A stretch of DNA of 64,000 nucleotides from NCBI GenBank assembly GCA_963971425.1, contig OZ020524.1, positions 4,001,773 through 4,065,772 on the forward strand, written 5' to 3'. Made by a program: the position numbers and the translations under genes. Source of the stretch: Bryoerythrophyllum caledonicum (Eukaryota > Streptophyta > Bryopsida > Pottiales > Pottiaceae). The notes under the pieces are model-generated. The model saw only the letters and a list, made by a program, of their open reading frames with translations. It was not told where the DNA came from and ran no database searches. Shown here piece by piece: positions 3,669 to 62,919 of the stretch (position 1 is its first letter; every line of letters begins with the position of its first letter).

Positions 3669-3784
3669 GTGAGTCATCTTCATTCATGTCAAAATCCCAT
3701 TCTTTTCACGTATGTCTATCAAAAAACATCGTATATCATGCTGCGTGATGAGAAGATTTTGTTCTATCTACGATTTAATATATG

Positions 3785-9707: not shown

Positions 9708-9709
9708 GA

Positions 9710-11553: not shown

Positions 11554-12573
11554 GATAAATGATTATCTACTTAATTCAGCGTACCTTCTCTGAAATAATC
11601 AAACGCCGAACCTGGCCTCAGGGGCTACGGTAACGACAATCATTTTAACGTGTAACTTCGGCTTCCCAGTAAATAAGTTGCAAAAACTGGCGGGTATTGA
11701 GCAGACGAGTAAATGCAGACCGTTAAAATCCATGGAAAAGTTACCAAAATCTGAGCAGCCTGCGCAAAGGCACACATCCCAAGCTCTGTCAGTTCTCACA
11801 GACCACCAGCTGCTCATGCATTGTGCGACTTCCGAGTGAGTGGAGTAGTGCAGCTCACCAGTTATCTTAATGACGTAGTACGAGACGCCGACGTCTCTCG
11901 CAGTCGAAGAGAAAGTCTTTTGCATCAGGTTTTGTAACTGCAGTTACAGTGGAGAACTTCAAGTACCATGAGCGAGGGAGGGTCAGTTTTGTTTTCCATA
12001 CCTGATCTTCCATTGGTAACTTCTCCTGCCATAGCTTGCTAAAAGCTGGGTCACTTCCAGGAACTTGTCAATGCTGTCTACATCACAGATTGAGATATTC
12101 ATGCAATATACCTTAGACTCGACTCTCAGGGGAAGCAGTCTGAGCTCCTTTGGTGAGTTCTCCTGCCATTGCTTGCGAAAAGGGTCATGTCGAGGACCTT
12201 GTCAATGCTGAGAACTCCCAGCAATGTACCTTAGACTTGATCTCCGGGGGAGCAGTCTGAGCTCCATTGGTAAGTTTTCCTGCCATAGCTTGCAGAAAGG
12301 GTCACTTCCAGGAACTTGTCAATGCTGTCTAGATTACAGATTGAGAACTCCCAGCAATGTACCTTAGACTTGATCTCCGACGAAACTGTCTGAGCTTGAA
12401 TTGTGTGATTGTGGATTACTTGCAGGAATGGAGAAGGGTGATGCTGCATGTGGGAGGTCCATGTTGCGTGCTCCGGCCTGGTTAGTTTGCTATCCACTTG
12501 TGAGTTGGTGAAGATGCGACTGATATCGTGGTTGAGGTTTGGGGCAGATTTTTGGAGGGTTTAGGGTGAGATT
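11554..12573. promoter_or_regulatory. Upstream region of the STICHEL-like gene
   Basis: This holds the 5' flank and probable leader of the gene starting at 12574. Small minus-strand open stretches here look like chance. The main structure is the three-unit tandem repeat listed separately at 12010-12396. No TATA box can be assigned with confidence. Confidence 0.35.
12010..12396. repeat. Three tandem 117-137-bp units upstream of the STICHEL-like gene
   Basis: Units at 12010-12146, 12147-12263 and 12264-12396 each begin near a TTGGT(A/G)A word and share CTCCTGCCAT(A)GCTTGC, GGAACTTGTCAATGCTG, CCTTAGACT and TCTGAGCT. The middle unit is shortened. Each start resembles a 5' splice site (GGTAAC, GGTGAG, GGTAAG). 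The array lies about 180-560 bp before the ATG, in the presumed promoter or leader. Confidence 0.85.
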
Positions 12574-16216: not shown

Positions 16217-18016
<1,800 letters not shown>

Positions 18017-28272: not shown

Positions 28273-35060
<6,788 letters not shown>

Positions 35061-35067
35061 TTTAGAG

Positions 35068-35250
35068 GTTAATCTCTAAAGCACCAAGTGTACGTGCGGG
35101 AAACAAAGTTTTTCACTTCAATTGCAATAATTTTCTAATCTGTGCGGTAAAATTCACAAAAAATTTAGGGCATCATCTCATATAAGTATAGAAGATCCTA
35201 TGGTTAAATTCTCAAGAAGTTCATCTAGCAATTTTAACCCCTAAGAGCCC
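35068..35250. repeat. Copy of the CTAAAGGACCAAGTG dispersed repeat
   Basis: It starts TTAATCTCTAAAGCACCAAGTG and continues with the phrase AATCTGTGCGGTAAAATTCACAAA, then a part reading TATGGTTAAATTCTC. Related copies begin at about 27121 (same strand) and at 54550 (opposite strand). Confidence 0.6.
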
Positions 35251-36177
35251 ATGTAACCTTGGGGGGACGTTTTTCATTTCGGGCAAGAACCTACATTTTG
35301 AAAAAAATCCTTTTATTTATGAAATTATTATAATAGATTGTCTTTGAATGTGGAAATATATATTAAAATATATATTTATAGATATATATATATTTAGATT
35401 CATAATATGAAATTATTAGCCTTAAAAGTCAAAATGAGGACTCCGGGCAGCTCCAAAATTCTTGCTAGAAGTCTCTATTGACATTGAGATTATTCATACA
35501 CGTAAAGAATATTACCTTCTTTGAAAATGTGAAAAAAAATCCTTGTCTTTAGTTATAAAAAACATTTTAACCCAAGCCAACCATTTTCACACATTGTCGG
35601 GCAAGGTACCAAAAAACTTCTTCTTTTCTACATAAAACCTAGAAATCTTCATATTTTTCACTTCTTATTTTTTTGACAACAACATGAGGTGAAAACTTTC
35701 TTTCTGAATGTTTGGATTATCATTCTTAAACATATTTAGTTCACAATAAAACAAAGCCTAAATTGGCAATTTTTGAACCTCCACTTCTTGCACACTTGTT
35801 TTGATTGTGCTACACCCCCTTTTTACCTCTAAATATTGGTGTATAGGGAATTGACATCATGCTTAACACAATGGTAAAAGATTTAGATCTTGTGTAGTGC
35901 AAAAATTTGACACCAAGTTAAGTCAAAGTTTGCTGATCCACTCAACGCAGGGAAGAAAATGAATCATTTGCTTGACTTCAAACACTATAATCTTTCAATC
36001 CGTGCGGTCAAAGTTGATTGAATTTCGTAGGATGTTACTCTGTAGGTCTTAATTAAGATCCTACAATCAAAACTACATATATAAGTTTTTGTTTCCCCCC
36101 TTACTCATTGCACCAGAATCGACAATTTTGAAGTGTTTTTGGTGTGAAATTGTCACAGGTCTTTAGGGGTTAACATA
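35238..36177. mobile_element. About 940-bp non-coding element with TTAACCCCTAA ends
   Basis: The left end TTAACCCCTAAGAGCCC and the right end TCTTTAGGGGTTAA are inverted copies. A second member lies at 60337-61905 and shares many phrases, such as TTTTTCATTTCGGGCAAG, CTTCTTCTTTTC(T/C)ACATAAA and AACACTATAATCTTTCAAT. It has no coding content and is probably a non-autonomous DNA transposon. Confidence 0.65.
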
Positions 36178-42675: not shown

Positions 42676-44179
42676 AAGGTAGCTGCACAAGTGCCCCTAT
42701 TGTGTTCCCTTTTTCTTTTCTTTTTTGAATATAGTCTTTAGAGTGTTGTAACTGCATGGGCGGAATAGTGCCTTCGTGCCTTTTTTGTTTTCTTTTAAAT
42801 TTTAATCTTTATGCAATGTTCTGTGGAGTACTACATGGGCTGAAGTGTGACTTGATGCCTTTATTGTGATTGTTTTTTTACAAAACTTTATGCATTGTCT
42901 TTAAAGAGTATTACATGGGTTGAATGGTGGTGTCTTGCTCTACTGATTTAGCTTCTGGCTTTCACTTGTACTTTGTCGGCTTGCTTTGTGAATATGGTTG
43001 ACTCGAGCATCCTCTTGGTGATGGTTGCCATGATCCCAATGATTGAAACAATTGATGTTTTGATCTTGTTTGCTCAAAAATAGAACGTATACATTCTCGA
43101 CTTTGTTGCGGCGCTAGGTGCTTGTGAGGCCCAACTCTTCACGTATTACATCGACACAACTACAACATTTTTCATGGACGAGTTCTCAAACTTTTGGGCG
43201 TTGATGAACTGGCGCACTTCAACATCTTTCTTTTGACAAGACGTTGACCTAACCAATCTGAGTGTTTAAAGTAGAAATTAGATCATATAGTCATTGTCGT
43301 GCACAACGGTATTGTGCAAAGATAACATCGTGTTAATCAGGTGAGAGCGCATAGTTAGAGACAAATCCGGAGTATTGAAGACAAAACCACCAACATTACC
43401 TCCGTTAAACAATAAAACAAAACACACTTACACACTATCAACAATCTAGACTTAGGAAAAAGAAATTAGTGACTAATAACCCCATACACTAAGAAGTAGT
43501 AAGCGGTCTACAAGTACCCCTTTACTCACCCCTTTGCCTGTACTGAAGCCCCTTTTACACCGGTGTTGTGTAGAGATGGGAGCGCCTTGAGAATTCACAG
43601 GGAATCTGGCTGCGATTGGAGATTGTTTGCTCGGGAATCCAATCGTATCTTCAAATCTTCAGGTCTTCAGTCTTCAGTCTTCAGTCTTCAAACTCCTCCC
43701 CGTTGGCCTATCCTGCGGTGGTTCAAAAGGGTTAAGGGTAAAGGTGGGTGATAAGAAACCACGGCCTCGGACGGGTAAAACGGGACGGCCAGACCACAAG
43801 CTGAAACCGTCCGAAAGATTGGCTCCTAAAATTCAAACCCACGGTGACCAGCAAACGTGCCTCACCGGTGGGAACGACATAAACACGACCGTGTGGGCAA
43901 TTAACCCCACTTCGCCGCAACAGAGTTTACAAGAACAGAAATGAAATACAACTAGCCTCCAAAGCTGGCTTGGAATCACAAAAAAAGAAATCGGACCACA
44001 AACCACAACACACTTGTCTCCATCTTCTCTTCTCTTCAAGCCTCAAGTCTTCAATTCCTCCATCCTTCAACTCCAAAGTCTTCAAGTGTTCAAAAACACT
44101 AAGAAACTCGAAAGAAGTGTTCAAAAACACAATGGAAAAGTTTCACCAAGGCTGTAACCTTCAAATAAGTGACACAAAT

Positions 44180-44810
44180 GACTCAAAACTTCAAATACTA
44201 AGTATAATAGCTCTCTGGAAATCTAATTTAGACAACTAACACTCCTCCAAATTTCAAGTCAATCTAAACTACTGTCCGAAAGATATACAAGTTCAAAGTT
44301 CTGTCCCTCCAGATATTCAATCGCTCATAACTTCTTCTTCAAAACTTCAAATCTCAATTGTAATAACTTTTTGAAGAGCTATGACTATGGTTAACGCACC
44401 TTCCAATTCTCAAACAATTCCAAACTACTGTCCAAAAGTTATGGACAATCAAAGTTCTGCCTACCCCTATTCATTCAGATCTCTATAAATTCTTGCTTAC
44501 AACTCCAAATCTCAATTGTAATATCTTTCTAAAAAGCTAAGATAGAGATGCACAGTCCCTCAAAATCTCAGATAAAATTGAGAACTACAGAAAAAGTTGT
44601 GGCTCCTCGAAACCTCTGCCCCTCAATGGATGGCCTCGGGTTTTCACAGAATTTAAACCTCAATAACTTTTTCTCTACAACTCCGAATTCAAAATTTAAA
44701 ACGAGTATGGAAAGCTCTTGAAACAAGAAACAAGATCACAAATTTTCAATTCCATAGCATTCAAGCTCAACGAGTTATACACAGTCAAAGTTCTGCTCCA
44801 AACCCTCGCT
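44180..44810. repeat. Degenerate long-period tandem repeat
   Basis: Units of roughly 160-180 bp recur three to four times. Each holds phrases like CTTCAAATCTCAATTGTAATA, ACTTTTT(G/C), AACTACTGTCC(G/A)AAAG and CAAAGTTCTGCC. The units are strongly diverged. Confidence 0.6.
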
Positions 44811-45669
44811 CTCTCATCCGCACACACACACACACACACTCACTCACTAAGGAATCTCTTTTCCAACTTTTCGACCTCAAGTGGACGTGGGCACTCCAGC
44901 CCATGTCACCCTACCCAAAGTACCCCACAAGGTACTTCATTACTTTCTTATCCTTTCCACTTTCAACCACAAAAAATCCCCTAGTCTTTTATTTATTGGA
45001 AGACTAAAAACTTAGACCTTCCAACCAACAAGATAAGTAAAATAAAAAAATAACTAAATAAAAATAAAAATAAAACTTATCGTAAGATAGTTGATGGTAC
45101 GGACGTATAAAGGTGTTGATTCGCACAATCTGATCGCCAAGTCGTGGACTTGGTTGGCTGGAAAAGTCGTGGTCAGTGGCTGCCGCCGGTCCGGGTTCAA
45201 ACTTGATCGAGCCCGTCGAGTGGTTCGGCGGTCCACGGCTTGGCTCACTAGTGAGGCAGAAAAAATACCAGTCAACCCGCTACCTACCCCCCTGAGCAGT
45301 GACAAAAGCGGTGCAGCACCTAAATGCTAACATTTGCCCAAATCCTCAAACCGTGGTTCTTACCACGACCAACCCCTTTTATCCCAATTCCTTACTTATT
45401 AAAATCCACACATATAAAGACTAATACTTGTATGTACATGATGGAAGAATTTCCATCAAGACACCGGCAAACCACACAGTTATATCAATCTGAATGATAA
45501 CCGCAAATGAAAACCTCTCAAGACCATAGGAATCAGTGTAATCCACATGAAAAGATACTAAAAGACTCTATAAACAAAGGATAGGTCAGGTGCAAGTAGA
45601 GCCCCATTGTTAATCACCTCTAACACATTTTTAATGCTAGACTTTGTCTATTTAGACCCTTAATGTACT

Positions 45670-48600
45670 TAACACTCTAGACAAGACCATTGACCCATTG
45701 ATACCTCCAACAAAGGTGAAGTTAAGCATTTTAAATGCCACCCCATAGAACATAAGTCATAAATAACCATTGTGGATGCTCGGTTTGCATTACCACATGA
45801 CCGACAACGCAATCCAACAGAGATGTGAGAGAGGCCAGGGTGTACAGTCCTATCAATGTGTGGCAAGTGGCAAGGCGCGCAATTGCGCGTGTGATCCTTC
45901 TACATCTTACTATCAAAACCAGGGCTTTTTTTGTTTCACGGTTATAGCCAAAATGGCGACACAAATTTTTTGGAGACCACATATGTAATGACACAAAGTT
46001 TCTCCTGAAACTATATAAAATTAGATTTTCTCCATAAATATCTTTTTTGGAGAATCCATCCCTATTAATATAGATTTTGTACATCATTTTTGGCGACAGG
46101 ATGAAGTCTTTGCTATTCACTAGTATGGAAATGGCCATCAATGTAATTTTGGGAATTTAAAATCATAATTTTCCAATTTTTTAGGAGAAAAAATTCGCCA
46201 TTTGGCTCCAAATTGCCAAAATAAAAACCCTAATCTCAACTCTCCAACACTAACACACATGAGTTCGTCACCTCACAAACTCGCGAAATTACTCTCCCGG
46301 CTGTCACATCCTAGGTGGTGGGCATTGCTTGTTACAAATACACATAGTCTCCAAGCGTGAAACGCCGCACTTGCGGTGGGTAACCTCCTCTCCATATTGT
46401 AGCATAGCGCAACGTATCTTAATGTTGAGAAATAGAGACGTTCTCCAATGCCATAGGCATCATCTGCTTAAACAAATTTGTACATTGCTCACACACTTGA
46501 GCCCACGTGTTCGGATTGTCCATGTTAGCCAACACCATGTCATCATTTGCTTAAATGGCCTTCGGTAAAACTAGGTGCGTTTGAAGCAATAGATAGTAAG
46601 GTAAAAAAAAATGCCAAGGATGCTTGTTTGCTGAACCGATAGCCCGTTGCTATCCACAGTAAGTGCAAATCCCAATCCTGATGATGTCCCTTCTTCAAGC
46701 TGTACTTCCATAGCCCCCTCTTGACGGTTTGTACCATGCGCTCCGTCAATCCATCTACTTCGCGATGATCCCTCGAAGTAGTGCAATGATCAATCATTGC
46801 TTGCTCACACAACGTCTAAAACTCATCCAAGAATTCTCTCCCTTAGTCTGTGAGTACCTACGTTGGAGCTCCAAAGCGGCTCAAAAACACTATCAAAAAA
46901 AGAATAAGCGGCCCCTTCACTGAACTGATTAGGCAAGGCTACCAACTTTATCCATTTTGAGAAATGTTTGATGATCACCAACACATAGTTGTTGTATTCA
47001 GGTGTCATTGGCAATGAACCTAGAAAATCCAAGTTCCAAGTGTATCCTAAGCCCATAATTGGAAAAATTGCAATTGTGGCATCAGAGCGTTAAAAGACGC
47101 TTGCACGTAATCACGCGCCATACATCGGGCAACCAATGCTTGGACTTGTGGCTGCATTCCTCGCCACCAATAGTGAATCTGTAGCAAACTATAGATCCTC
47201 CGCTTCCCAAAGTGTCTAAGATCCACACATGTATGCTTTATCAGCTTCACCCTCTCCGTTGGAACGGGCACCACCTTCTTAGCACCATCCGGCCACACCG
47301 ATCTGACTAGGTGAATTTATTTATCCTCCTATAATCACTACACATCATTTTTTCAGTCCAATTACCATTGATATCTTTCTTAGATGGCATAACCATCGTC
47401 GATGCATACTCTCAATCAGATAAAGCCAACTCCACTGCCCTGCAACCACCAATTCTTCTATATGAGAGCAAATCATCTTTCGTTCAACATTACTATACTT
47501 GTATGGCTTCCAATAAATTGGTGCTTCATTTCTCAAGATAATACGTACCTCCTGCTCCTTCAACACTCCTTAATTGTTCAAACTAAACCAAAAATAATCC
47601 ATACACTCCTTGAAGGACTCATATTCCTCTGCCTCTACTACTCCATTTGCAAGGCCAACTATTGGTTTCTAAGTTTCCTTAGTTACCGCCTCCTTCGGTT
47701 TCTTTGGAGCAGGCTTCTTTTCCTTTGGTTGGTATTGAATGCCAACTGGAGGAGGCTCATCTTCCCCCACATTCATCATGCTTTCAAGTCCCTCCAATTG
47801 GCTAAGTTTGTCAATTTCCAAATTCCTCCTTTTGAGAGGTCGTGTCCACAAACATCTTCTCCACGACCTCCTCCAAATCCATCCTTTTGTGAGCCAATTT
47901 CATTCCTTGACTTAGATGCTCCACCCCTTGGTGAAGATCCTTTGCCTTGGACATTGCAAATATATTTGCAGTAACCCATATGTTCCATGGATGAAGTGCC
48001 AAGGCCCTCTTGCTCCCAACCACTTTGTTTGTGACCTTGACAGAGGCAAGTGGTTCATTGGCCGCTCGCAACTCAAAATACCCTATGTATCTAGTCAAGC
48101 TAGAAGCTAAACGCTTATAGTCGGCAACCACCAACAATACAATCCAAGTCAGAAAATTTAAATCCATTGCCTAACCAAGTAAAAACCGTCGTTGTTTCTC
48201 CAAAATCCCAGGCACATTGGTGGTGCTGGTAGGAAAGCCCATGGCTCTCACTTCCTCATCAGCATTAGGCTCTACCATCTCTTGTGACAATGAATCCCAC
48301 ACAAACCTAGGTCCATTATTTTTAAAAGCATAAAATCGGACAAAATCAACCAACGTAGGCAAGGCCCTACGTGGTTCCCCCTTGCGGTTCATTACCACCA
48401 GTGGTGTTTGGTCATCATGGTACACGCGCCATCGAGTCATGTGAGGATCCAAAATACCACTCACATACACATCCAATTGTTTAACATGACTCATTGTAAA
48501 TTGTAGCAACCTTGTCGGTGCCAGGTTTGTCAAGCAGGTCAATGTGCTCGTGACACCATTGTAGCCGCATCAATCAAGACTAGCAAATTCAAAGTCTGAT

Positions 48601-50300
48601 GAATGCGGTGCATACTCTTCAATGTCTTCGACCTTGAACTGCTCACCACCGGGACGTTCTCCATAATATAACTCAACGGTTGCTTTTGAGAAGTTTGAAG
48701 CAACCGTAGGAGTTGAATCATGGCAAAGAATGTGGAAGATTGGGAGTCCTTCAATCCCTTTTGGTTGCCTAGTACCATAGACATGTCTTGGTAAGGCCAT
48801 CCTGCAATGACAAGGTTAACCTGACCCAAAGAGTGAATGTCATTGTCTTATAACAAAGAAATATTAGTCACAACTATAGAGAAGGAAATTTTGATGGCAT
48901 TAGTGGCCAACAATTTTGGAAATTGTGTCTTCACTCTCCGTGAATGACGTTTGGCCACATGCCCTGCTGCTTCATCCACATCCACGTAAATATAGTGCTT
49001 GACCTTGATCCTTGCATAAGAAATAGCTGCCAATCTTGTACCAATTTCTCAAAAGAGCTCCAACAACACAATCCCATCCATTGTGCCTTTCAATGGATGA
49101 TAGACGTATCCAAAAGAAGGCTTAAGTCTTTCTTAATTCCGAGATCATCTTCCATATGTGGTAGCATAGAATGTTGCCACGCATTGTCCATTGCCAACTC
49201 CGCGTCCTGCAACAACTGGATGGTGTTGCTTCACGCCGCCTCGATCTCAGGTTGATATCCTTTTACCTCTCCACCACTCGTATTACCAATATGGACATCC
49301 ACTACCTTTGAATTGTGGTTATCAATAGAGGAATCTTCAATACCTGCCTGAAACCATGAAGGTTTCACATTCATACATCCAGAGAAGGCAAACACGTCAG
49401 CAAAGTGACTAGTGAGAACTCAAACAAATTGAGCTGATAGCTGAGCCTTCCGTCCATCTCCTACTCGCCATCATGGTCTATAACTTGTTGACTCCTCCTA
49501 GAATCTAAAGTGAATTCCATTGGGTACAGCTCCGTGCAAGGGCGTAGGCCTTTCGTGTGCCATCCTTGATGGCAAGTGCCATGCCACTCAACACAAAGTC
49601 CCCAAATTCATCATCCACAGAACTAAATTCATCATCTCTACAACTGTATCTTCCACAATGTTTGTGCCTTCTTCCTTCTTCCCCTTGGACAAGAGTGGTC
49701 ACTGGTGGTGTCACCCTTGGTGCTCCACCAAACACGTCCACATAATTTGGAGCATAGAAATCTCTCCAGGCTATAATTTTTGGAAGGTGAGCCTTCTCAA
49801 ATTCTCCATTATTCGCTAGTAGAGCTCCTTCCAGACACCCAAACAATGCCTTCCAAACCATGTACGGATTGAAGTCTAGACTTCACACCACATGGTGAAC
49901 TCTCTCTTGAAGTCATCAACTTCAATGGTGCCCATGGCACTCAAAAATCTCCGTACCCCTTGTTCTCCACCTTCATATGGTGAAGCCATGTCTTCCCAAT
50001 CAAAATATAATTGATGTTCCTCGAGGTTGAGAATTGAGTGGTTCACTCAAAAGAGCTCCATGCTTCATGGGTGCCCCATGCCTACCTCCTACTGTCATGT
50101 GGTGTGGAACAAAAAGCCCTCACTCTCAAACTCGGTCAAGATAAGAAAGAATGGGGGTAGCTTGATACCTCGGGAGAAATCTTCTATCTTCACAATGTAC
50201 CTTGATCCAAAATTCCTCAACACAAGTGCCCTTCCAGCAATCACCAAGTCCTAAGTTTCCCCACAAAACAAATCAGCTCCGCGGGGTGATAGTCGACTAA
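45670..50300 (-). mobile_element. Ty3/gypsy retrotransposon fossil carrying a C5-DNA methyltransferase and a PHD finger
   Basis: Read on the minus strand the parts lie in this order: an unassigned gag-side region (about 50.3-49.2 kb), cytosine-C5 methyltransferase pieces (about 49.1-48.17 kb), a charged linker (about 48.17-47.67 kb), the start of reverse transcriptase (about 47.57-47.35 kb), the integrase H2C2 zinc-binding region (47.30-47.05 kb), integrase core pieces (47.06-46.54 kb), an integrase C-terminal region (about 46.5-46.3 kb) and a PHD-type zinc finger (45.87-45.67 kb). Methyltransferase signs are YVDVDEAAGHVAK, LVIAGWP, a MENVPV phrase typical of motif VI, and a final NADEEVRAMGFP...LGQAMDLN. 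Integrase signs are HFGKRRIYSLL and YWWRGM. The PHD sign is DLCSMGWHLKCL...WSCLEC. Most of the RT/RNase H region is absent. No LTRs could be identified. It is broken, with well over ten breaks, and looks old. Cytosine methyltransferase capture by retrotransposons is known from charophytes and dinoflagellates. Confidence 0.75.
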
Positions 50301-52220
50301 GGTGGTACAAAATTCTGTCACAAAGGGTATAGGAACAAGTCACGAGCCTTCTTTTGCTACCTAGTGTCAATGTGGGTTTGATTTTGGAATTCTTCTGATG
50401 GAATGTAATTGCTTACCTCAATAGCAATATGAGAATCCTAAACAAATAGAGTTCCAGCTCATGGTTTAGCCAATAGAAGTATATCTTTCATTAGTACATA
50501 CTTGTCACAAGTTTCTCAAATTTAACAAATATACTTCTTTTTAGAATTTCAGGAGGTAAAATACTTCAAAAAATTTGGAAGACATTTGTACCATAATTAC
50601 ATACTTGACTAAGGTGGTACATTATAATTGAAAATTTTAGATCCAAAACTTAATTTAACTTTTATTGGTAAAAAATAACTATTTTTTCAAGAGGCCTACA
50701 TAAAAAATAAATGTTGATTTTTGCTCCAAACTCTTATCCAACCTTCTTTAGCATACAAAAATCTATCTTAATATATAAAGTGTTTTATAATTTTATTTTA
50801 TTTTCCATCATTTTCTTCAAAACCTAGTTTTTGGTGCCTTGATTTAACATATATATTGCGTAGTTATTTTAGTATATTTTCAGTCTCTGTAGTATGCAAT
50901 ATACTCATCTCGGGAAAGGGTTGGGCCACTTATAGAACAACATGTGTTATCACAACACAAAGTCCAAAAAACCAGCACTTTGTTCAAGATATTTTGTGTT
51001 CACCTAACATTTTATTGGCCATGATTTCTTCACACCTAATCAATGGACGGTTGGCATTCAACAACAATTTAACAAAGGGCTTCAAAACAAATATATTATG
51101 CAGTATATGGTTTTTGCCCAAAAGTGAGCCCCCTTAGTCGACTTCTACCCCGCAGCTCCTCTTCTCATCTTTCACTTCTAGCTTTGATAATTCTACCAAC
51201 AGCAGCAAGGAATCCATGAACGAGTGCATGCGCCATGCTCACAGTGTGCGTTGATTATGAGATCACGAGGACGAGTGAGCCGAAACTTTGTAAACTCCAG
51301 GAACAAGTGCATGCGCTTGTGAAACATGAAGGTGTGCTCGTGAGTCAAGAATCTGTGGATGCCAGAAACGTTGACGAGAACGAGTGCACGCCACGTGCGC
51401 CTGATGCAGCTTGGCACCCCTCGCTTACGATGCTCACCAACACTCTGCCCTGCCACAACCTTCGTGCTACAACAAACCCTTCCCCGCACTCGCAGAAAGT
51501 CTAGGCTCGCAGCGCAATTCACAGGCCATGAAGCATCATGCAAAAGAGCTCAAAGGTCAATGTCCACCTTCCTCCTCAGTCCACAGACTCTCAAGGAAGT
51601 AAATTTGGATGAAGACTCCTACTTTCTGTGGATGAGATAAGAGCCAACGAAATATCATCAACTCTATCTATGTTGTTTTTCTCTCCACCACCTCTTCTAA
51701 CCATATCTCTGACTTTCATCCATTCCCTTCTAAGCAAGCTTCAGTTCTTGCAACAAAATCAGCATTCAAACATAGCTCTAAAAACACCCTACACACAAAA
51801 TTTTGAGGGTTTTAAGTATTAAAAATCCACTAAGACTACACTCATGTCAAAGTGGTGATCTTTCTCAAGTAAGAAACAAGTGAAATTCACTCGTAAACAT
51901 ACAACAAAAGTCAAGTCAATGTCATTCTTAAAGAATAATTGCATAATAACAATGAAGCTAATGGAGTGCACGCATGCACGCACTTCGTAACTCCTTCATG
52001 TGGAAGACTCAACTTGAGAAAGATGAGTCTTCTCCAACTATAAGTGGAGGTCATTTGAAATCCAAGTCCCAAATGAGGTGTCAAAAGACACCACCAATGC
52101 CCTAAAAGTCAAAGACTCTAATACTAGCCCTAATTATCAACTAGAGCTAGAATCTAGGTCTTCACTTGGCCGCTTAACCTCCTAGTTGATTTATAACAAA
52201 TTAACCAACCTCCACAAACC
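50301..52220. other. AT-rich stretch with no secure gene
   Basis: The words GTCGACTAAGGTGGTAC near 50292 and GACTAAGGTGGTAC near 50610 form a short direct repeat. A more GC-rich patch at about 51190-51650 has open frames on both strands but no recognisable domain. It could be an eroded gene or element piece. Confidence 0.35.
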
Positions 52221-52229
52221 CTCCAACGC

Positions 52230-53050
52230 ACCGAGCCTAACAAGGTTTATGCATTATACAATGGCAAGACCATTGACAGAGCAACTTTTTTAGCTATGGG
52301 GGCCTCCATTAAAGCTGATTGCAAAGGTATTTATTCTTATTGCTTACAGTTTTAAGTTTCCTTGTAGCTATTGTTGATTAATTTTCGACTCAAATGGTTC
52401 TCCGTTGTGTTGTGTGTAGGGCAGCAACACACCTGAGAAGCGAGTTGCGACGCCGCTTTCCTAGTGTGGATACACTGAATGCCTTGGGCATTGTGTGTCC
52501 ACAATATTTGGCTGCGGATGACTGCCTTGACACTTTCTCCATGCATACTGAAGTCATCAAATGATTCTTTTGTGAGAGTAAAGAACTTAAAGGTGAAGGG
52601 GTAGCCTTAAAGGTCATTGTATCCACTCTGTTGAATAGATTTGACCTTGATGCGGAGCAAAGCCTCTTCAAGCTCTCCATGAGAAATAACATTTGCCCCG
52701 CCTTTGAGCATCCATTTGATTTGAACCGCTCACAAAGATACAGCGGATCGCCCAAGCCAACAGGCCTCTAGCAGGCCGTTTTCCACCTATGTGAAGTTGG
52801 GAAAAATTGTTGTAGTCATGGTGTTGGAGTTGGTGGAAGATGAGTGTGTCTTCAGCTCCCTCATGTTTTTGAAGACTAGAGTGCGGAGTTCCCTAGATAG
52901 AAACCTCGGCATCGTGGTGGGAATGTATTCGCAAAAATTGTATGACATACAAAACTTCCCGTACAACGCAGTGTTTGACCAGAGGTACCAAACCCCAGAT
53001 AGGAGCCGTTATGGTTGTGAGGATGAGGTTTTTATGGTGCAAGCTTGATT
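52230..53050 (+). mobile_element. hAT-type transposase, C-terminal part (relic)
   Basis: Text near 52440-52730 reads ELRRRFPSVDTLNALGIVCPQ, then FDLDAEQSLFKLSMRNN. Near 52780-53000 it reads FSTYVKLGKIV, ELVEDECVFSSLMFLKTRVRSSL and VVGMYSQKLYDIQNFPY. This is the hAT C-terminal dimerisation region (E-x4-FS...K...R..L). One TGA near 52561 and one frame change near 52735 break it. It sits on the same strand as the N-terminal hAT part at 41.4-42.0 kb, so the two could be halves of one old copy pushed apart. Confidence 0.6.
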
Positions 53051-53699: not shown

Positions 53700-54035
53700 A
53701 CGTATTATATTTTAGATTGCAATTTGCATCCCTCCGAACGTCGTGCGTTGATCCGCGAAACGTTGTCATTCCGTGCGGCAAGGATGGCACAACCGCTGAA
53801 GTACTCATGCGCATTTGCTTCGACGTTAGCAATTCTTCCATAGACGGCATTGATCAAGCCGTTCAAGGTGTGATTGCCAACAATCATCGCCCGTGGACAC
53901 CTAATCATGTCATCCTTCACCTTCTTCAGCCATGTTATCCTAAACCTCCCCCAGCGCCAAGAGCCACTCTGAAAATGTACGGTTGCCCAAATTCACACGG
54001 CGTTCATCAACAACAACGCGCATGTTCCGGCGAAG
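53700..54035 (-). mobile_element. Helitron RepHel (PIF1-type helicase) fragment
   Basis: On the minus strand, from about 54030 down, the text reads RNMRV, GNRTFSEWLLALGE, then INAVYGRIANVEANAHEYF and CAILAARNDNVSRINARR. These match the part of Helitron PIF1-like helicases with the pattern F-x2-WLL-x-(I/L)GEG ... (R/C)AIL-x-x-(R/K)N-x2-V-x2-IN. Only this short piece is present, and one frame has a stop after LALGEV. The Rep domain and Helitron ends are not seen. Confidence 0.55.
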
Positions 54036-54039
54036 TCTT

Positions 54040-54135
54040 AGGTTTAGGGTTTAGGGTAGGATTAGAATTTAGGTTTAGATTTAGGTTCAGGTTTAGGTTT
54101 AGGGTTTAGAATTAGGGTTAGGGTTAGGGTTAGGG
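54040..54135. repeat. Interstitial telomere-like repeat (TTTAGGG/TTAGGG)
   Basis: About 95 bp of degenerate telomeric words in one direction: TTTAGGG, TTTAGGT, TTCAGG, then several clean TTAGGG units. The plant heptamer and the six-base form both occur. It abuts the Helitron helicase fragment and is followed by GC-rich non-telomeric DNA. Confidence 0.85.
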
Positions 54136-54340
54136 AGCGGCGGATAGACAGAGACGCCTTTTATATAGGTAGATATGTCACTGGAGCCAAATCGCACCGC
54201 GTTTCTACACTTCAGTTGCCAACATGGTGTTCCACCAAAAAAAATAATTGCCATTGAATTTTTTTACATTTCCCCTATGGAGCCAACTTGCTTCTTGTCC
54301 TTCGCAATGGAGGCCAACCACTTATGAACATAAGTAACCG

Positions 54341-54550
54341 TTAAAGGACCAAGGCATTCTAGAGGAATCTTTATTCCATTGATTAAAGATTGCCAAGATT
54401 AAATTTTTGAGAATATAACCGTTGGATCTTCTTCCAAACTTACACAAGATGATGTAGTAAACATTTTGTGAATTTTGACAAGATGCATATAATTGCAAGT
54501 CAAGGTGAAAAAAATTGTCCCCCAAACAGACACTTGGTCCTCTAGGGGCT
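54341..54550. mobile_element. 210-bp MITE-like element with AAAGGACCAAG ends
   Basis: The left end TTAAAGGACCAAGG and the right end CACTTGGTCCTCTAGGGGCT are inverted copies. Inner text (AACCGTTGGATCTTCTT, ATTTTGTGAATTTTGAC) is the reverse complement of the family copies at 27121 and 35068. This is the most complete member in the window. Confidence 0.65.
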
Positions 54551-54952
54551 AGGAACGACGCCTAAATAGGAAACTAGGGTTTGGGCATGAGTTAGACATC
54601 ACTTTGCACAAGGAAATTTTGTATGAAATTGACAAACATAAATTACACATTGCAAATATTTGCAATCCTCATGATAACAAGGTTATATTCTGCATCATTC
54701 AATAAAAATAAACCAAAATAGACCAAAATGATTAAGTTGGTGGTTTGAGGCTATGACTCTAATTTTGAGTAACATGGCATGTTATCCTGGATAACCTGTG
54801 CTTTCAATTGTTTGAGAAGTAAGCATGGGTGGTGATGGCAAGAGTATGGGAATTTTTTTTTAAATTGAGAATTTGCATTCATGAATCTACAAATAATCAC
54901 ATGTGTGATAGGCCAATAGAGAATGGACAAGAGAATTGAGTAGGTGGACATC
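54551..54952. promoter_or_regulatory. Upstream region of the TPR gene
   Basis: AT-rich sequence ahead of the first usable ATG at 54953. An upstream exon cannot be excluded, because TTGAGTAG at about 54935-54943 could also be a splice acceptor. Confidence 0.3.
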
Positions 54953-57900
54953 ATGGAGGGAAAAAAGAAGGACTTTGCGGATATTGAGTTGGAGAATGAA
55001 ATGGGATGCTTCAAGGAACCCACTTTGCGTCTCAAAAATGCGGAGATGGAGGTGGTCAAGTGCATAGAGGAAGGTGATATGGAGAAGGCACTTTACCTCG
55101 CCATGCAAGCAAGTGATTTTTTCAACAATTTTATAAAATTTATTTAGAGAATATATAGTATAATCTTTCATACATAATGTAAAAATAACCTTGATAAATA
55201 TAGATTATAATAAAAATAAGAGGATCTACCTTTGAGGTGTACCTTCACTACTCTTACTTTGTTAATTTGTATTGTTGAAGCTAAAAATTAGTTAATATGT
55301 GGTTAATAAACATTTGAAATAATTTATGCTTAAGAAAATTTTGAAGAGAAAGTTGGGATTGGACAGCAATTGGCACTTGCAAAGCTATGCAATGAAGATG
55401 CGGCCAAAGGTGATAAGGATCCAATGTTGACAAAAGCACACCTTCGTCTTAGCAATATCTATCATGAAATGGTATATTGAACCTTGTAGGCTTCTATCAA
55501 TCTTATAGTTTCAGAATTTGTTGAAATTTGTTATGCAATAAATACAAATGAAAGAAATCTCTTGGAATTAACATTCATTCAAAAAATTCAAATCTTGACT
55601 TGTATGTTATATGTGTCTAGTTAGATTCACTAATACTATAATAAAAATGATTGTATAAATTTCTACTTCATGTTTTTATTTTACAAATTTTGATAAACAC
55701 ATTGTTATAAAATCTAGAAAATCATTTAATATTGATTGAAAGATTTACCCTAAATACAAGTCTTGGTGAAAGTTTACCAGGAATGGTTTTAAGATTGGAC
55801 ACTTTGAATTTGAAGTTATTAAGTAAATTTGAATTAAATTGTCTTGAAAGCATTTATAATAAAGTAATAAAAAGTGCAAATATTCATCATACTCAAACTA
55901 CTAAGTGTAGATAGACTTTAAAAGTGAAAAATTTGTTTTTCAAATCAATAATGACTTACTCAAATAAAATGCTTGTCAGTAATTTAATAGGGACTTGGAG
56001 ACCAAGCTTATTTTCATGGTCAAAAGGTATTTTATTGAATTTTTCATGGTCAAAATATTTATTAAGCTTATTTAAAAAGAAATCAATTCAATACTTTGGT
56101 TTGAGTAAATTCACGTTAGATAGTGTTGTAGAACATATCTCAATTGTATATAAATTCAAATTGGAGTAGAACCTTTACAAGTTTCATTTCAATGTTTGTT
56201 GAAGGCAATAGAAGGAGTTGATCCACGGACAATACGGGAAGGCAACAATGACATGACTGTGACAATCATAATGGCTATTGCAAAGGCCATGATTCAACGT
56301 ATGTTTGAAATATTTAGCAAAACCATTTAAATATATTGCAACCACATCTATACTAAGATGGAGTCTTCAATATATGGAATATTGCATAATAATAAAATAG
56401 TAAACTTCAAACTTTGTTACTACACTAAATTGGATAATTTTTTACTTGTTTTAGGTGGTGATCCAAAGTGTGTAAATTATCTCCAAAGAGCTCTTGTAAT
56501 CAACCATAGACTTCATGGGCCTAATGTATAATTTCTTAGACAATTCATTTTGAACTCAAACAATTCCTTTGAAAATATATAAACACTAACATATACCCTA
56601 TTTAATGTAGATAGTGACTCTTGTGTATTCTTTTTAATTACCATATTAAGGTTTTTGATGATGATACAATAATTTATTTTTTCTTTGTTGAGATTTTAGA
56701 AGTACTTAAAGCCTTTATAAAAATTAGACACAAGCATTGAAAATTTCATTCTTAGTACATAAGTCATTTAGAAAGTACCTAAAATTGTTAAATGTTGCAA
56801 AGATTCAATAGCATAATTAAATATTTTATGGATTAAAGAAGAAATCTATGTTCAACTTTAGTTTCACAATATAGGAAATTTGAAATAGAAGATAATTCAT
56901 TGTATTTATTTTTCAATGATGAACATGAATTTTAGATGATTTAGTTATCTAATTGCATCTCAAATAAATGTGTGAAATGTTGTAGTCATAAAAAACTGAC
57001 TTTATATCATTAAATTTTATATGATAAATTAAACAAGCTAATATATGATATATTTGAGCATTTCCAAAATAGATGTTCAATATTTTGTGATTTAACTTTT
57101 GATATATAATGAATTTATCTAGTATTGCTAAATATAATTTTTGACCACCATGTACAATAGCATGACTCAAACTTTCCCATTCATGAGGGATTTGGAGACT
57201 TCTATGTGAATCTTGGAGATAGTCGTGCAATTTACAAGGAAACACAAACATTGAAGTCAAAAGATTCTTCAATTGATGTGAATAAGATTAAAACTGAAAG
57301 GGAATTTGATGACTATCAAAAAGCAATGGAAGAGTATGCAACGGTGAAACATGCATATCTTGAAATATTTTCCAACATTTTGTATTGATTTCAAGTCACA
57401 AAGATAATAATAGATGTAAGATAACCCCTCTGGTAACCTACCAAAATCCATAACCGACACTTATAAAATTGGAGTATATCCAACCCACTTTCATCCCATT
57501 ACCACCCATTAAGTTTATGATGAAGTTTTCTTATTGTCAAGACCCCTTACTTGTGGTTGGCGCTTCTAGGGGGTACCTTTTTGGGGGCCATTGGCTAAAC
57601 ATGGCAGCACACTTTGAGAATTCATAACTATTTCACAATTTATTGGAAAAATATGACACTACTTGGGTTGGAATTGCAATTTAATAAGGTATCGCTGAAA
57701 AATAAATGTGTTATTAATTTTTCTCTACATATATGCACATTGCTTAACTTGTCCGTTATTGGGGGATTTACCTTATTTTGCACTTGATAATCCTTTTATG
57801 TTTTTATTGGGAGAAGGCATATGAGAAGATAGCAGGAAGTGGACAAAAGACCAATGCATTTCAAAGAGGTGGCCTAACAGACTCTAGAATGGGTAACATG

Positions 57901-59460
57901 TTTGGCAAGGCTGCAAAGGTTTACCTAATTTTACCTTGTAACATGTTCTAAAATTTGATTCTTAATATGCACTTGCAAAAAAATCTATTTCAAGTTATAA
58001 GCTCGATTTCTATTTCATCATAATAAACCAAAACTATGGATAATATTTAGTTACTAGTGAAAATATGTGTTCTTTGAACACAATATGTAGAATGATGATT
58101 TTAGAATTGAATGTGTAGCAATTATATTTCTATGGAACAGAAACAACATAGAAATCAATTCTATTATATATAAACATAACTTGTTATCATTTTATGTTTT
58201 ATGGAGCTCAAATCCCGCTTTGGGTTAAAAGTGATTTATGTTTAATAGAGCAGGTCCAAAGTAGACAAGGTAATGACAATGAAGCAACAATCATTTATGA
58301 AAAGGCTATTAAGTGCCTTGAATCCACTTCCAAATCAAATAAAGCTAAATTGGCACGATTGTATTATGAACTTGGTGTAACCTATCACAAAACTAAGGTT
58401 CCTTTTATAAACAAAACATCTTTTAGTTTCTTATCATTGCAAATCAATGTATAGTTGGCTTCCTTTACAACATCTATTACAACAATCATTTCTCAAGCCT
58501 TTTCATTATAACAGCCAGCTTGGACTGTTGTAGAGGAAGCTTACTCTTATTATGTAATCAAAAGAACTATTGTAGAGGGAGCTAATTGTTATAATGAAAT
58601 GACCTTTATAACAAACACGGTTGTTGTAGAGGGAGGTGACTATAATTTTTTAGTAGACATTTAATACAATAAAAGGGCCTGAAATAAGCTGCAAAATGAT
58701 GTTCAAATTACAGCAATATTCCAATTCAATCAATGCTTGCAAAAGTGCAATTACATACCTAGATGGAGAAGAAAGAAGTGGTGAAAATGATGGCCAAGAG
58801 CCACTTCTATTATTGATTAAGCAGCAACAAGCAATTTCATCATGTGATGGAAATGAGGTAGAAAATGCAAAGACAATTTTGGAAGAGCTCATGGCACTTC
58901 AAAAAAAGGAATATGGTGGCAGCAGCATCAGAATAGCAGAGGTAAAAATATCACTTTTTCATTTATTGTGAAGAATACGACTCACTTAAATATTGTTTGA
59001 ATTGGGCATATGAGGTGTTTTTTGACTTTAACAAAAAATGTATATAGCAGAAAACACCTAATATTTTAATTTGGACAAAATTCAAGTGAGTTGTAGCCAT
59101 TTGAAGTAGCAGAGAAGTAGCGGCTAAATGCTGAAATGAATTCTAAGTTTTAGTTTTTCTAAAATTGTCCAAAAAATTAACATTTTTTTGGATTTTGTGA
59201 AATATCTGTTATATATTTTGACTATGTATTTTTTATGATTAAAATACATCAAAGGAAAAATGAAATGAAGAAATTTAGTGGGTTATTAATTGCAGACTTT
59301 GAAGTATTTAGGTGATGTGTATGTTGTACTCAAGAATAAGCCACAAGCTGAAAAATACTACAATCATGCACTACACATTTTAAAGAACAGACTTGGTTCT
59401 CAAGACCAAACAGTGAAACAACTTGAACAATACATCGCGCAATTCAACCTCAAAGATTAG
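54953..59460 (+). CDS. Tetratricopeptide-repeat (TPR) protein, kinesin light chain-like architecture
   Basis: Nine exons fit in phase with no stop: 54953-55112, 55335-55471, 56205-56298, 56455-56525, 57161-57343, 57817-57918, 58254-58397, 58714-58941 and 59296-59460, giving 427 residues. Several TPR-like helix pairs are readable: LALAKLCNEDAAKGDKDPM...HLRLSNIYHEM, CVNYLQRALVINHRLHGPN, ATIIYEKAIKCLES...LARLYYELGVTYHKTK, and finally LKYLGDVYVVLKNKPQAEKYY followed by HALHILKNRLGSQD. The 'xA(L/I)xIxxxxLGxx' pattern at helix B recalls kinesin light chain/NPHP3-type TPRs. The role is probably protein binding; partners are unknown. Unlike the GC-rich island genes, this gene is AT-rich with introns of about 90-730 bp. 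The start is uncertain, since 5' exons may be missing. An AT-rich but intact gene among repeats suggests a lineage-specific or weakly expressed gene. Confidence 0.7.
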
Positions 59461-60336
59461 AATGACTTGAAACAAATATTAATCCTAATGACTTTAATAT
59501 AGTCCTTTTGAATATTATAAATAGTTTAGAAATGCTGGAGGGTTTTGAAAGTAGCATGTGTCATTAGATTATGTTTTTGAACACCTATAAATAAGAAATA
59601 ATGAATAAAGAAGCACTTTAAAAATAATTTGTCAAAATTGCCATGTACTTATTCCATACGTAACCTTATATTAGTGGTTTACATACCTCCATAAAAGGCC
59701 ATTACTTATCAAATATCATAAAGTCACTAATCATCAAATATTATAGATAATCATAAAGTCTATCTAAAGGAGGAAGAGAGGTCAAAACTAGGTTTTAATG
59801 CTCAAAGGTAGCAAAAAACATCCAAAACTTATATTCTCTTTTTCAAGTCTTGAAAAGAAGGCATAAAAAAACATTAATCTTGTGGTTACCATATGTAGCA
59901 TAAATACCAGTAATCAATCCATTGTATAAAAGTGCCCCTATATCTTGTTGTTTGACATTTTTAGCTGACGAACATTCAACTAAAAGGATATTAGGGACAC
60001 ATTTACATAGTGTACTAATTGTGGAAATTTTTACAATATTCTTCACTGATGCTGAATCTCCACATGTTCTTCCGTTTATTAATTTGTCCTTCCCTGATTC
60101 CATGGCTACTACAAATAACTTCATTGTATCAATAATTCACATAAGGTGATAGAGTACTTACTCATTTAATATAATACCTTGTAACAATAGGATTATCTCA
60201 AAGTTCTTACACAAAAAGGAAAGACAAAGTGAACTCAAAATGAGATATGATTATGGAAAAAATCATATGTAAACAAATATAAAAATCATAATTCATTTTT
60301 TTGCACCAAGGAAATGCATGCATAATAATGGAAATT
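59461..60336. other. Intergenic stretch downstream of the TPR gene
   Basis: A 93-codon minus-strand frame at 59843-60124 (MKLFVVAMESGKDKLINGRT...) and an overlapping plus-strand frame are open but not recognised. The minus frame might be an exon of something. There is too little to call a gene. Confidence 0.35.
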
Positions 60337-61905
60337 AACTCCTAAAGGCCCATTTCACCACAACGGGACATTTTTCATTTCGGGCAAGTTTATATGATTT
60401 GGAGAAACATTCAATTTTTTGAAACTATTATACTAGATTGTCCTTAATGAAATGTTTGTGGAGATGTTTTACAAAATGTTTATTGACTCATGGTTGGGAA
60501 GTCATTAGCCTTCAAAGTTCAAATGAGGACTCTACGCAACTCCAAAGTTTCTATTGGCATTAAGATGTTTGTGCAGTATATACAGATAATATCATTTTCT
60601 TGGATATCCCCCAAAAAAGTTAGTGTAAAAAACTATCTTAACCCAAGTCAAACATTTTCACACATTTGAGTTATTTGTAAAGGGAACCGGTCTTTTGTCC
60701 TCCTTTTTTCATGCAAAAGGGAATCTAACCTGTATTTGAGTGTAGCCGCAAAGTAATCCTGTGAAAAAAATTCAGGGTTTGAGGGTTTTGAGGAGGTGTT
60801 ATTTATGGCACAAGTGGCACAAATCTCCCAAAAAAAAAACAAGAACAATCATGAACGTCATGACACTCTGGCATGTATCCTACATCCTAGAGTTGTGCAT
60901 GATGTGAAGGGTCAATGATTGCTTAAAATAAAAGCCAGGCACAAACTCGAGTTTGGGAATTCTAAGGCTCAAAAACTAGTCTATCCAGTGTTCTATTCTA
61001 GGTCTACAGTGAAACCCTGCCAGTGGACTCGGCGACCCTGGCTTTTCCATTTTACAGGTTAGAAACTGAGGATTTGGGGTACTTTGCGGATAACTCTGTT
61101 GTCAAGCAAGGTATCAAATAAACTTCTTCTTTTCCACATAAAAATTAGAGATCTTGATTGTTTTTACTTTTTAGTTTTCCTACTACAAGATGTGGTGTAA
61201 ATCTTCTTATTGATTGTTTGGAGTCTTGTTCTAATGCATATTTGGCTTACCAAAAAAATATATAAAAATTGTAATGGCAAGTTTTGTACCTCCACTCCAT
61301 GCACAATTTTTTTGAATTTGCTACGCTGTTGTTCTACTTTTAAAATTGGTGTCCATGGTACTAATATCATGTTCCACGTGATGGTATAAATCTTAGACCT
61401 TGTGTAGTGGAAAAATCTAACACCAAGTGAAGTCAAAGTCTCCTAATCCTCTCAACACAGGGAAGAAAATGAAGTTTTTTCTCTATTTCAAACACTATAA
61501 TCTTTCAATATGTATGGTCAAATTTTATCAAAGTTTGTGAGCATGTTTTTAAGAATTCTATATTTAGATATTATTGTTCAAATCTATTCTATATTATAAA
61601 AGAGCAAGGCAATATCCGGTGGTTGAAACCTCCAATATCCGGTGGTTGAAACCTCCAAATTGCTCTAGGTGATACCCTCTTTTCTAGGAAGTTGACAAGT
61701 GGCATTTACTTTAATACTTTTACTTTATATACCTAAGCAACCTAGGTATCTAAAGTAAATAATGGAGATACGGTTACTTTATTTCAATTGTCCTTGGCCC
61801 GTTGGGAACAATGTTTTGAATTTCTTTTACACACTTTACAACAAAACCAACAAATTTGAATTGATTTTGGTGTGAGATTGTCTAGGAACTTTAGAAGTTA
61901 ATATT
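60337..61905. mobile_element. Second copy of the TTAACCCCTAA-ended element, with two inserts
   Basis: It is colinear with the 35238-36177 copy. The ends are TTAACTCCTAAAGGCCC and ACTTTAGAAGTTAA. Two segments are absent from the other copy: about 60664-61100 (listed separately) and about 61590-61810. The second insert contains the phrase CAATATCCGGTGGTTGAAAC twice in tandem. The sequence is non-coding. Confidence 0.65.
60664..61104. mobile_element. About 440-bp insert nested in the element at 60337
   Basis: The uninterrupted copy at 35.6 kb reads CACACATTGTCGGGCAAGG. Here the same text is split after CACACATT and resumes at GTCAAGCAAGG. The insert begins TGAGTTATTTGTAAAG and ends CTTTGCGGATAACTCTGTT, which are imperfect inverted copies of about 16 bp. 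It holds a GC-richer patch (AAACCCTGCCAGTGGACTCG) near 61012. Superfamily unknown. Confidence 0.6.
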
Positions 61906-62919
61906 CTTGAGCTAATATTAACCCCTAAAGTTCCTTTAAATATGAATATTAATGAGCTAATAATAACCACTAAAGTTCCCCTTAAGGCTAAAGCTCCCCA
62001 TAAGTAATTTAAGTTCTCAAATAATTCCCCCACAGTCCTTCCAACCAAATCAACCTCTCTATGTGGTCCCACTTCTTATCCTAAGATCATAAAGTACAAG
62101 GTGATAAACAAGGTCACCCTCTATTACTTTCAGCATGGATCCATTGGCTTTCATGTCTATACAAAAGTAGAAAACACTATTCCCATCAATTTAAGCCATA
62201 CACTATACTTATAATAATGATCTCCACAAAACAAAAATACCTACACTTGAAACTCTAAGTGAAAAGCTTAAATCTCTAAGTGAAACACTTAAATCTATGA
62301 AAAATGACATACTATGATTCTCTTATGAACTACAGAAGTAGTAGATCCTTACAGATCCCTATAATTGTGAAGAGTACTCCATCCTTGTACTCATAAAATC
62401 CACCAATCACTTGCCACCATTTTGGTAACATTTCAATCTAAAATCAAGTACAAGGTAACTAAATCAAAAGTTAAGACCCACTTCACAAGGGTTCCATAAA
62501 GAAAAGCGCAAAACAATCCTCAACAGAATAGCTGATAATACCGTAAAGCACACGTCAAAGTACAGATTATTAAATTAACATAATGTCAGTTCGCATCGCT
62601 GAGTAACTCCAACCATAAAGAAAAGAATATCCTCACTAAGTTCACAGAGTAACTTGTGAAAAGTGTGTAAAAGCTCCATATGAAAACCTCAAGGTCCAAC
62701 AGAACTCCCACACAAAGCCCATCTAAAATGCCGCATTGTCTGTAGCTCAGTACCCTTCTCTACTGCTACGCATACACAACTTTACTACTAATGGGGAACA
62801 ATTTTTAGCAATCACAAAATTTGAGACCTCAAAGCGATGCAGTTGGCCACGCTCGCTGCTGCTTGTTCCATGTGAAAACCATCTTACATGTAGGCGGATC
62901 ACTACTGAAACAGGACGTC
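61906..62919. other. Intergenic stretch and probable 3' UTR of the hnRNP-like gene
   Basis: The first part repeats ACCCCTAAAGTTCC-type words (61920-61990), leftovers of the element family just to the left. The last few hundred bases before 62919 are the likely 3' UTR of the minus-strand gene. No separate gene is seen. Confidence 0.4.

Follow-up and report, generated by a model that had tools for sequence, protein, structure and literature searches.

A Ty3/gypsy-type retrotransposon family with a DNMT3-like methyltransferase and a PHD finger in a moss-like genome

The 64,000-nucleotide stretch analysed here (the window; positions 4001773 to 4065772 of contig C12 in a 437-Mb assembly) holds a decayed Ty3/gypsy-type retrotransposon together with pieces of a C5-cytosine DNA methyltransferase and of a PHD finger. 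Do these pieces belong to the element, as the original prediction held, or are they fragments of host genes that came to lie beside a gypsy relic? Both domains are known in host chromatin proteins, and the fossil taken alone has frameshifts between its pieces. A wider question stands behind this one, namely what use a transposon has for a type of enzyme that serves to silence transposons, and it is now testable in a plant group with laboratory models. From comparison of the fossil with its relatives, we consider it virtually certain that this is a Ty3/gypsy-type family with the methyltransferase and the PHD finger as parts.

The window copy lies on the minus strand and runs from 52242 to 43295 (blastn to a young copy, L014), thus reaching past both ends of the first proposed extent, 45670..50300. 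Methyltransferase, reverse transcriptase (RT), integrase and PHD pieces follow one another in the predicted order, all on that strand. The methyltransferase piece at 48542-48847 scores 31.7 bits against PF00145 (cut-off 22; E 1.4e-7) and the PHD piece at 45672-45899 scores 27.6 bits against PF00628 (cut-off 24; E 3e-6), so neither is at noise level; the integrase zinc domain at 47050-47316 reaches 34.5 bits against PF17921 (cut-off 25.5). In comparison with solved structures, DNMT3A (E 0.0021) and then HhaI (E 0.005) come closest to the methyltransferase piece, and the PHD piece matches PHF12, ATXR5, KDM5A and others. The integrase core is below its Pfam cut-off (15.1 bits vs 32.6); taken alone, the pieces of gag, of motif IX/X and of the RT start had no relevant match in Pfam, and those of motif IX/X none in the PDB either. 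The integrase core, RT start and motif IX/X pieces are assigned because their DNA aligns to young copies in the same genome. In aligned blocks, the fossil is 80.4% identical in DNA to L014, a copy of subfamily Aa, and about 76% identical to copies of subfamily Ab.

Genome searches scored the best candidates only (123 of 1055, 150 of 1526, 144 of 440 and 126 of 2178), and copy numbers are therefore lower bounds. With PF00145, at least 123 matches were scored as the best of 1055 first-look candidates, all over the cut-off, and many sit in open frames of 1353-1371 codons. Further copies of the same domain order, which the original prediction had proposed to look for in the host genome, do exist: well over a hundred relatives were scored, some with both long frames open. 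We selected 20 loci (L014-L033), 10-kb stretches picked at long-open-frame matches and so biased to young copies; in nine of these both reading frames are open (open reading frames, ORFs), ORF1 with at least 1353 codons and ORF2 with 1041 or 1047. The order in young copies is gag, zinc knuckle, protease, methyltransferase, a single in-frame TAG, RT, RNase H, integrase, PHD, within which the Ty3/gypsy order of gag, protease, RT, RNase H and integrase is present. In the copies scanned, ORF1 contains gag and aspartyl protease (both below cut-off), the zinc knuckle (over the cut-off in subfamily A, below it in B) and the methyltransferase, and ORF2 contains RT, RNase H, the integrase zinc domain, the integrase core and the PHD finger. 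An A copy scored 52.5 bits for PF00145 and 37.5 for PHD, with zf-CCHC, RVT_1, RNase H, H2C2 and rve also over cut-off; a B copy scored 46.3 and 40.9 bits for the same two domains. When each domain was searched singly by tblastn, the order was kept in the 20 loci, with the exceptions of L022, without integrase and PHD, and L021, without RT and RNase H. The RT motif YxDD is present in all ten ORF2s and the integrase motif ADGLAER in nine. Matches with E up to 0.1 in the scanned frames included neither a tyrosine recombinase (PF00589), the integrase being rve, nor a chromodomain. The copies fall into subfamilies Aa (e.g., L014), Ab (e.g., L019) and B (L024, L025, L029), and the B methyltransferases are 48-51% identical to those of Aa. 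A more diverged methyltransferase (L056, G000:C1:54439214), 44% identical to A and 54% to B, perhaps represents a third lineage. Upstream in L014, a short frame (1062-1709; 216 codons) overlaps ORF1.

Linkage of the two domains extends across the genome. A PHD finger is present in 19 of the 20 loci, all of which were fetched by their methyltransferase. A PF00628 profile search scored at least 150 matches (the best of 1526 first-look candidates) and a search with the subfamily-B methyltransferase at least 126 (the best of 2178). For at least 74 of the 126 scored methyltransferase matches, a PHD match lies 2.5-6.5 kb downstream on the same strand; this count takes all scored matches. Conversely, a methyltransferase match lies upstream of at least 83 of the 150 PHD matches, at a median distance of 3,888 bp, a count that rests partly on 37 extra methyltransferase places picked by eye, some because they were near a PHD match. 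Both lists hold the best-scored matches only, so real pairs are missed. With strands flipped, 0 of 150 PHD matches were linked, and with positions shifted the mean was 0.125 and the maximum 2 of 150 (200 shifts).

A second source contains the same element. L049 (CADCWO010000201.1; 9,285 bp), the sole relative found in the bacterial-archaeal collection, carries a B element whose ORF2 is 97.4% identical to that of L025 over 1047 residues and whose ORF1 is 89.4% identical over 1162, with TAG and PHD kept. It is filed under an uncultured Synechococcales cyanobacterium metagenome genome and, by its content, looks like eukaryotic contamination of a cyanobacterial bin. The beginning of L049 recurs at its end, a pattern seen when a repeat is assembled in collapsed or circular form. 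Searches of IMG/VR with fossil peptides or degenerate patterns gave no relatives (five loci from one search were without similarity), and a search there with the methyltransferase profile gave only one distant enzyme, L048, at 27%.

Which organism hosts this family? Two different plastomes, both moss-like, lie within the assembly (contigs C894 and C821; L044-L047), with PsaB 97.6% identical between them (2.4% apart) and PsaA 97.4% identical, and the assembly may be a mix of two bryophytes. Among solved structures, PsaB of both plastomes is nearest to chains 7ksq, 6l35 and 8htu (1666.3 and 1658.8 bits), followed by 9lut (1633 and 1627 bits) and by further chains at about 1599 or below. The source of chain 6l35 is a moss, Physcomitrium patens (PMC7884438). 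Judged by this match, the host is moss-like and hence a land plant, which bears out the land-plant lineage that had been proposed. Element matches are spread on 13 of contigs C1 to C15 (C5 and C13 have none among the matches listed) and the window's own contig is 23.5 Mb long; we therefore assign the element to a bryophyte, moss-like in either case.

The methyltransferase is best described as DNMT3-like. A profile built from ten element methyltransferases found DNMT3A, 3B and 3C first among solved structures, at up to 67.7 bits, followed by HhaI (38.2), DRM (33.8-36.2) and DNMT2 (21.7); the 56 chains listed at E 0.01 included none with the name DNMT1 or CMT. The enzyme is collinear with DNMT3A in motifs I, IV to VIII and X, and since they align in order it is not of the rearranged DRM type, a rearrangement of motifs that is named in PMC5890265. 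Motifs I, IV, VI, VIII and X are found in 18 of 18 ORF1s, all with the catalytic Cys. PWWP and ADD are the accessory domains of DNMT3. We use the qualified class name because motif IV is PCQG in all 18, vs the PCN seen in DNMT3, and because neither PWWP nor ADD was listed in the scanned frames. Elsewhere in the genome, L006 (G000:C14:16016358-16017317) is an uninterrupted 370-codon frame that encodes a complete C5 methyltransferase (218 bits, profile positions 3-322) unlike the element copies. All eight C4HC3 ligands of the PHD finger are present in each of ten young ORF2s, and the C4HC3 label first given to the window copy fits these copies; the window copy itself has one zinc ligand (the third zinc Cys) changed to Tyr, and the catalytic Cys of its motif IV is Tyr as well.

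The ends of the element are organised as split repeats. In A-type copies the plan is A - coding - B - A - B, with a repeat A of 367-374 bp at the 5' end, B-A-B at the 3' end and a B of 231-239 bp, and it was found in three of the five copies tried with 2-kb flanks. Of the other two, L018 showed repeated B at its 3' end only and L031 no match, and neither gave a 5'-3' repeat match in those flanks. Between the first B and the A after it stands GC. Identical simple long terminal repeats (LTRs) at both ends are absent in the A copies; in three B copies, a pair of repeats 350-367 bp long was found. The outer ends read TGTC...GACA and are flanked by 4-bp duplications (CCTC, TAGT and AGGA) in all three copies with both ends found, so that TG...CA ends and a short target duplication, as made by a DDE integrase, are both present. 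Within a copy, the 5' and 3' A repeats are 100, 99.7 and 100% identical (three copies). Some copies are therefore young, and the description 'broken and old', apt for the window copy, does not extend to the family.

ORF1 and ORF2 lie in the same frame, one TAG apart. The context of this stop is CAA-TAG-CAACCA in Aa and Ab (CAG precedes TAG in one) and AAG-TAG-CAATCA in B; UAG-CARYYA with TAG was found in 24 of 27 loci, and also in L049. Six bases of the form CARYYA after UAG are described as essential for readthrough in tobacco mosaic virus, and readthrough candidates among rice gypsy elements are mentioned in the same paper (PMC2754532). By sequence, the element stop is a leaky stop context of the tobacco mosaic virus type.

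Both captured domains are under purifying selection between the A subfamilies. In four Aa-Ab pairs, the ratio of nonsynonymous to synonymous substitution (dN/dS) was 0.07 in each case for the methyltransferase, 0.05-0.08 for the PHD finger, 0.02-0.03 for RT and 0.07-0.08 for gag, and it was low in all eight stretches tested. The fossil, for its part, has decayed in a particular manner. When its changes were polarised with Ab, C-to-T and its complement made up 269 of 433, falling on 63 of 220 CG, 62 of 247 CHG and 144 of 1204 CHH sites, as compared with 58 transitions among 1631 A/T sites and 106 transversions among 3302 sites. As single-base changes, both Cys-to-Tyr replacements are of the C-to-T kind. 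This decay fits long cytosine methylation in all contexts. CpG depletion was dropped as a special sign: the element stands at 0.51 vs 0.67 for the window, yet other stretches are lower.

How might such an element work? We infer from the sequences a scheme that takes in readthrough, packaging into the particle, an active enzyme and its methylation target, and the binding of histones by the PHD finger together with what it recognises. Most ribosomes would stop at the UAG and yield Gag-protease-methyltransferase, and the smaller share that read past it would extend the product by RT, RNase H, integrase and PHD. In this way the particle would take up the methyltransferase in Gag amounts, beside the element's own complementary DNA (cDNA), and the most likely substrate of the enzyme would be this cDNA or the newly inserted copy. 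The PHD finger, at the position that the chromodomain holds in chromoviruses, would most likely tether the integration complex to the tails of histone H3. Enzyme dose is predicted by the conserved leaky stop, the PHD finger would offer a second, independent test of reader-guided integration, and the two domains together could let the element mark or steer its own copies. Taken whole (family identity, dosing by a leaky stop, methylation of self DNA and PHD-guided integration), this account is on balance modestly favoured. The stronger proposal, that of a living land-plant element with an epigenetic kit of its own, in which a writer at Gag dose marks the cDNA either ahead of integration or directly after it, while a reader in the integrase chooses the chromatin for the pre-marked copy, is one we put forward tentatively, as less likely than not.

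Several points weigh against the account. Of the 27 loci, one has CAG in place of TAG and in two the stop context was not found. The synonymous divergence (dS) between Aa and Ab, 0.57-2.0, is partly saturated, and that between A and B is saturated and could not be scored. Within subfamilies there are few changes and the ratios are uneven (methyltransferase 0.09-0.19, gag 0.08-0.37, protease region 0.20-0.60, PHD 0 and 0.51). Host silencing explains the C-to-T excess of the fossil equally well, and a protein that methylates the element's own DNA could simply speed its own silencing. In a yeast test, the methyltransferase of the algal element KnitGypsy-Dnmt3 gave no methylation, a result judged inconclusive there (PMC5890265).

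The alternatives differ in how well they survive these data. The methyltransferase could act on other targets, such as DNA viruses, rival elements or host silencing. Purifying selection shows that the enzyme has a use and names no target, and an anti-DNA-virus role has been proposed for retrotransposon methylases (PMC6338049), but a place on the Gag side of the leaky stop would predict a particle-bound enzyme that is nearest to its own cDNA, and we regard other targets as unlikely. Self-silencing, or copy-number control, in which new copies are methylated to stay quiet and the host survives, seems improbable to about the same degree: the many copies, the low dN/dS between the A subfamilies and the C-to-T excess at all three site classes agree with it, whereas it needs a group-level benefit and host methylation yields the same decay. 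It is less likely again that the translation of ORF2 depends on reinitiation or on an RNA of its own instead of on UAG readthrough. Readthrough is itself our inference, and the three exceptional loci favour such a route; the two frames, however, are in register with a gap of a single codon, and CARYYA is kept across two subfamilies, A and B, with methyltransferases that share only about half of their residues. Finally, the idea that fragments of host genes, for a methyltransferase and for a PHD protein, just happen to adjoin a gypsy relic has next to no chance of being right, and is ruled out by the domain order, by open frames that join the methyltransferase to gag and the PHD finger to the integrase, by the genome-wide linkage and by L049.

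The preferred reading, a family that carries both domains, allows the fossil to be read piece by piece. The whole decayed copy, with its later insertions and deletions, occupies 43295..52242, and all of its own features lie on the minus strand. It opens with TGTTAGG in the 5' repeat A (51870..52242; 82.7% identity to the 3' repeat A of L014, element positions 9399-9769), followed by a piece of the short upstream frame, ORF0 (50086..50250; 70.9% to L014 1413-1577), a gag piece (49664..50013; 77.9% to L014 1928-2286) and a linker piece between two deletions (49530..49627; 85.7% to L014 3089-3186, with element positions 2287-3088 and 3187-3998 absent). The DNMT3-like methyltransferase is represented by frameshifted pieces of the motif I side and of motifs IV, VI, VIII and X (48080..49081; PF00145; 73% protein match to L014); its lower end was judged from the reading frame, and the domain lies within the DNA block 47299-49534, equivalent to L014 3999-6240. 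At the site of the young copies' TAG, the fossil reads TAC (47732..47734; CAA TAC CAACCA, read from the sequence). The N-terminal part of RT, to DYRRIN (47299..47569), is collinear with L014 to element position 6240 and resumes at 7616, and this alignment gap places the deletion of the RT core and RNase H at 47298/47299. The integrase, comprising zinc domain, core and C-terminal region (46233..47298; PF17921), is 83.2% identical to L014 7616-8680. The zinc knuckle and most of the protease are lost as well.

Two later insertions, neither assigned a strand, interrupt the copy. The first, of about 317 bp (45916..46232), has element positions 8677-8680 on both sides as a 4-bp duplication, and because it splits integrase from PHD finger the two must once have been continuous. 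It is possibly a miniature inverted-repeat transposable element: it has an imperfect terminal inverted repeat, with ends that start AGGG, which scores 40.5 vs a shuffle mean of 26.1 and maximum of 43.5 (n=500) and, since that maximum is higher, is not beyond chance by score alone. The PHD finger, the last polyprotein domain (45672..45806; PF00628), follows, with 85.3% DNA identity to L014 over 45461-45915. The second insertion, of 1,897 bp (43564..45460), lies in the 3' untranslated part with CCGGTGT (7 bp) on both sides; it contains repeated units spaced about 156 bp. The copy closes with a single 3' repeat B (43295..43563; 83.4% to L014 9126-9396), which ends GCACGACA; the 3' A and one B were not found here. 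The flanking 4-mers, ACCT and ATGA, differ, and there is no matching target duplication. No simple LTRs were found in the window, which the split repeats and the insertions explain, and the remainder of the window yielded no second copy of the element.

Elsewhere in the window, two genes that lie close together, at 12565-15105 and 16363-17793, are STICHEL-like (PF23007) and beta-tubulin, and long open frames at 7927-9707 appear by eye to be transposase-like with a zinc-binding end, with no Pfam match at E 0.01. The stretch 54001-62000 is AT-rich, with a CpG observed/expected ratio of 0.2-0.4, well under most of the window, and 30001-36000 is similar. Rfam and tRNA scans of the window gave nothing.

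Chromatin readers and captured methyltransferases are each known from other retrotransposons. Chromoviruses, such as RLG1 of Physcomitrium, likewise have a chromatin reader in the integrase, but theirs is a chromodomain, whereas the present element has a PHD reader plus a methyltransferase (PMC7466625; neither 'PHD' nor 'methyltransferase' occurs in its main text). CR1/L2 long interspersed nuclear elements (LINEs) also carry a PHD finger, suggested to aid targeting; they differ in being non-LTR elements with the PHD mostly in ORF1 and, in the parts of that source covered, no methyltransferase (PMC4120745). The capture of methyltransferases by charophyte and dinoflagellate retrotransposons, mentioned in the original prediction, is indeed described in PMC5890265. 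SymbioDIRS-Dnmt3 and SymbioLINE-Dnmt are captures of this kind, the former also with DIRS repeats, but they use a tyrosine recombinase or LINE machinery and reside in dinoflagellates (PMC5890265). The A-coding-B-A-B plan is reported for DIRS elements, and a figure legend gives it for KnitGypsy-Dnmt3 too (PMC5890265); DIRS elements have a tyrosine recombinase, and the present element has a DDE integrase (rve) instead.

The nearest known system is KnitGypsy-Dnmt3 of Klebsormidium nitens (PMC5890265). It shares with the present element a gypsy polyprotein with a non-rearranged Dnmt3-like methyltransferase, gypsy domains and DIRS-like repeats, and both are intronless and under purifying selection (PMC5890265). 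Its host is a charophyte alga (PMC5890265), and here it is a land plant. The words 'PHD' and 'chromodomain' are absent from the main text on KnitGypsy-Dnmt3, figures and supplements aside, so a PHD finger may be present there, and the parts of that paper covered (PMC5890265) hold no stop-codon readthrough, unlike the leaky-stop context of the present element. None of the open-access papers listed described an element of this kind in a land plant or one with a PHD finger. That gypsy elements with DIRS-like repeats can capture a methyltransferase was known from one alga; as far as the open-access literature shows, the land-plant host, the joint PHD finger and the leaky stop are new.

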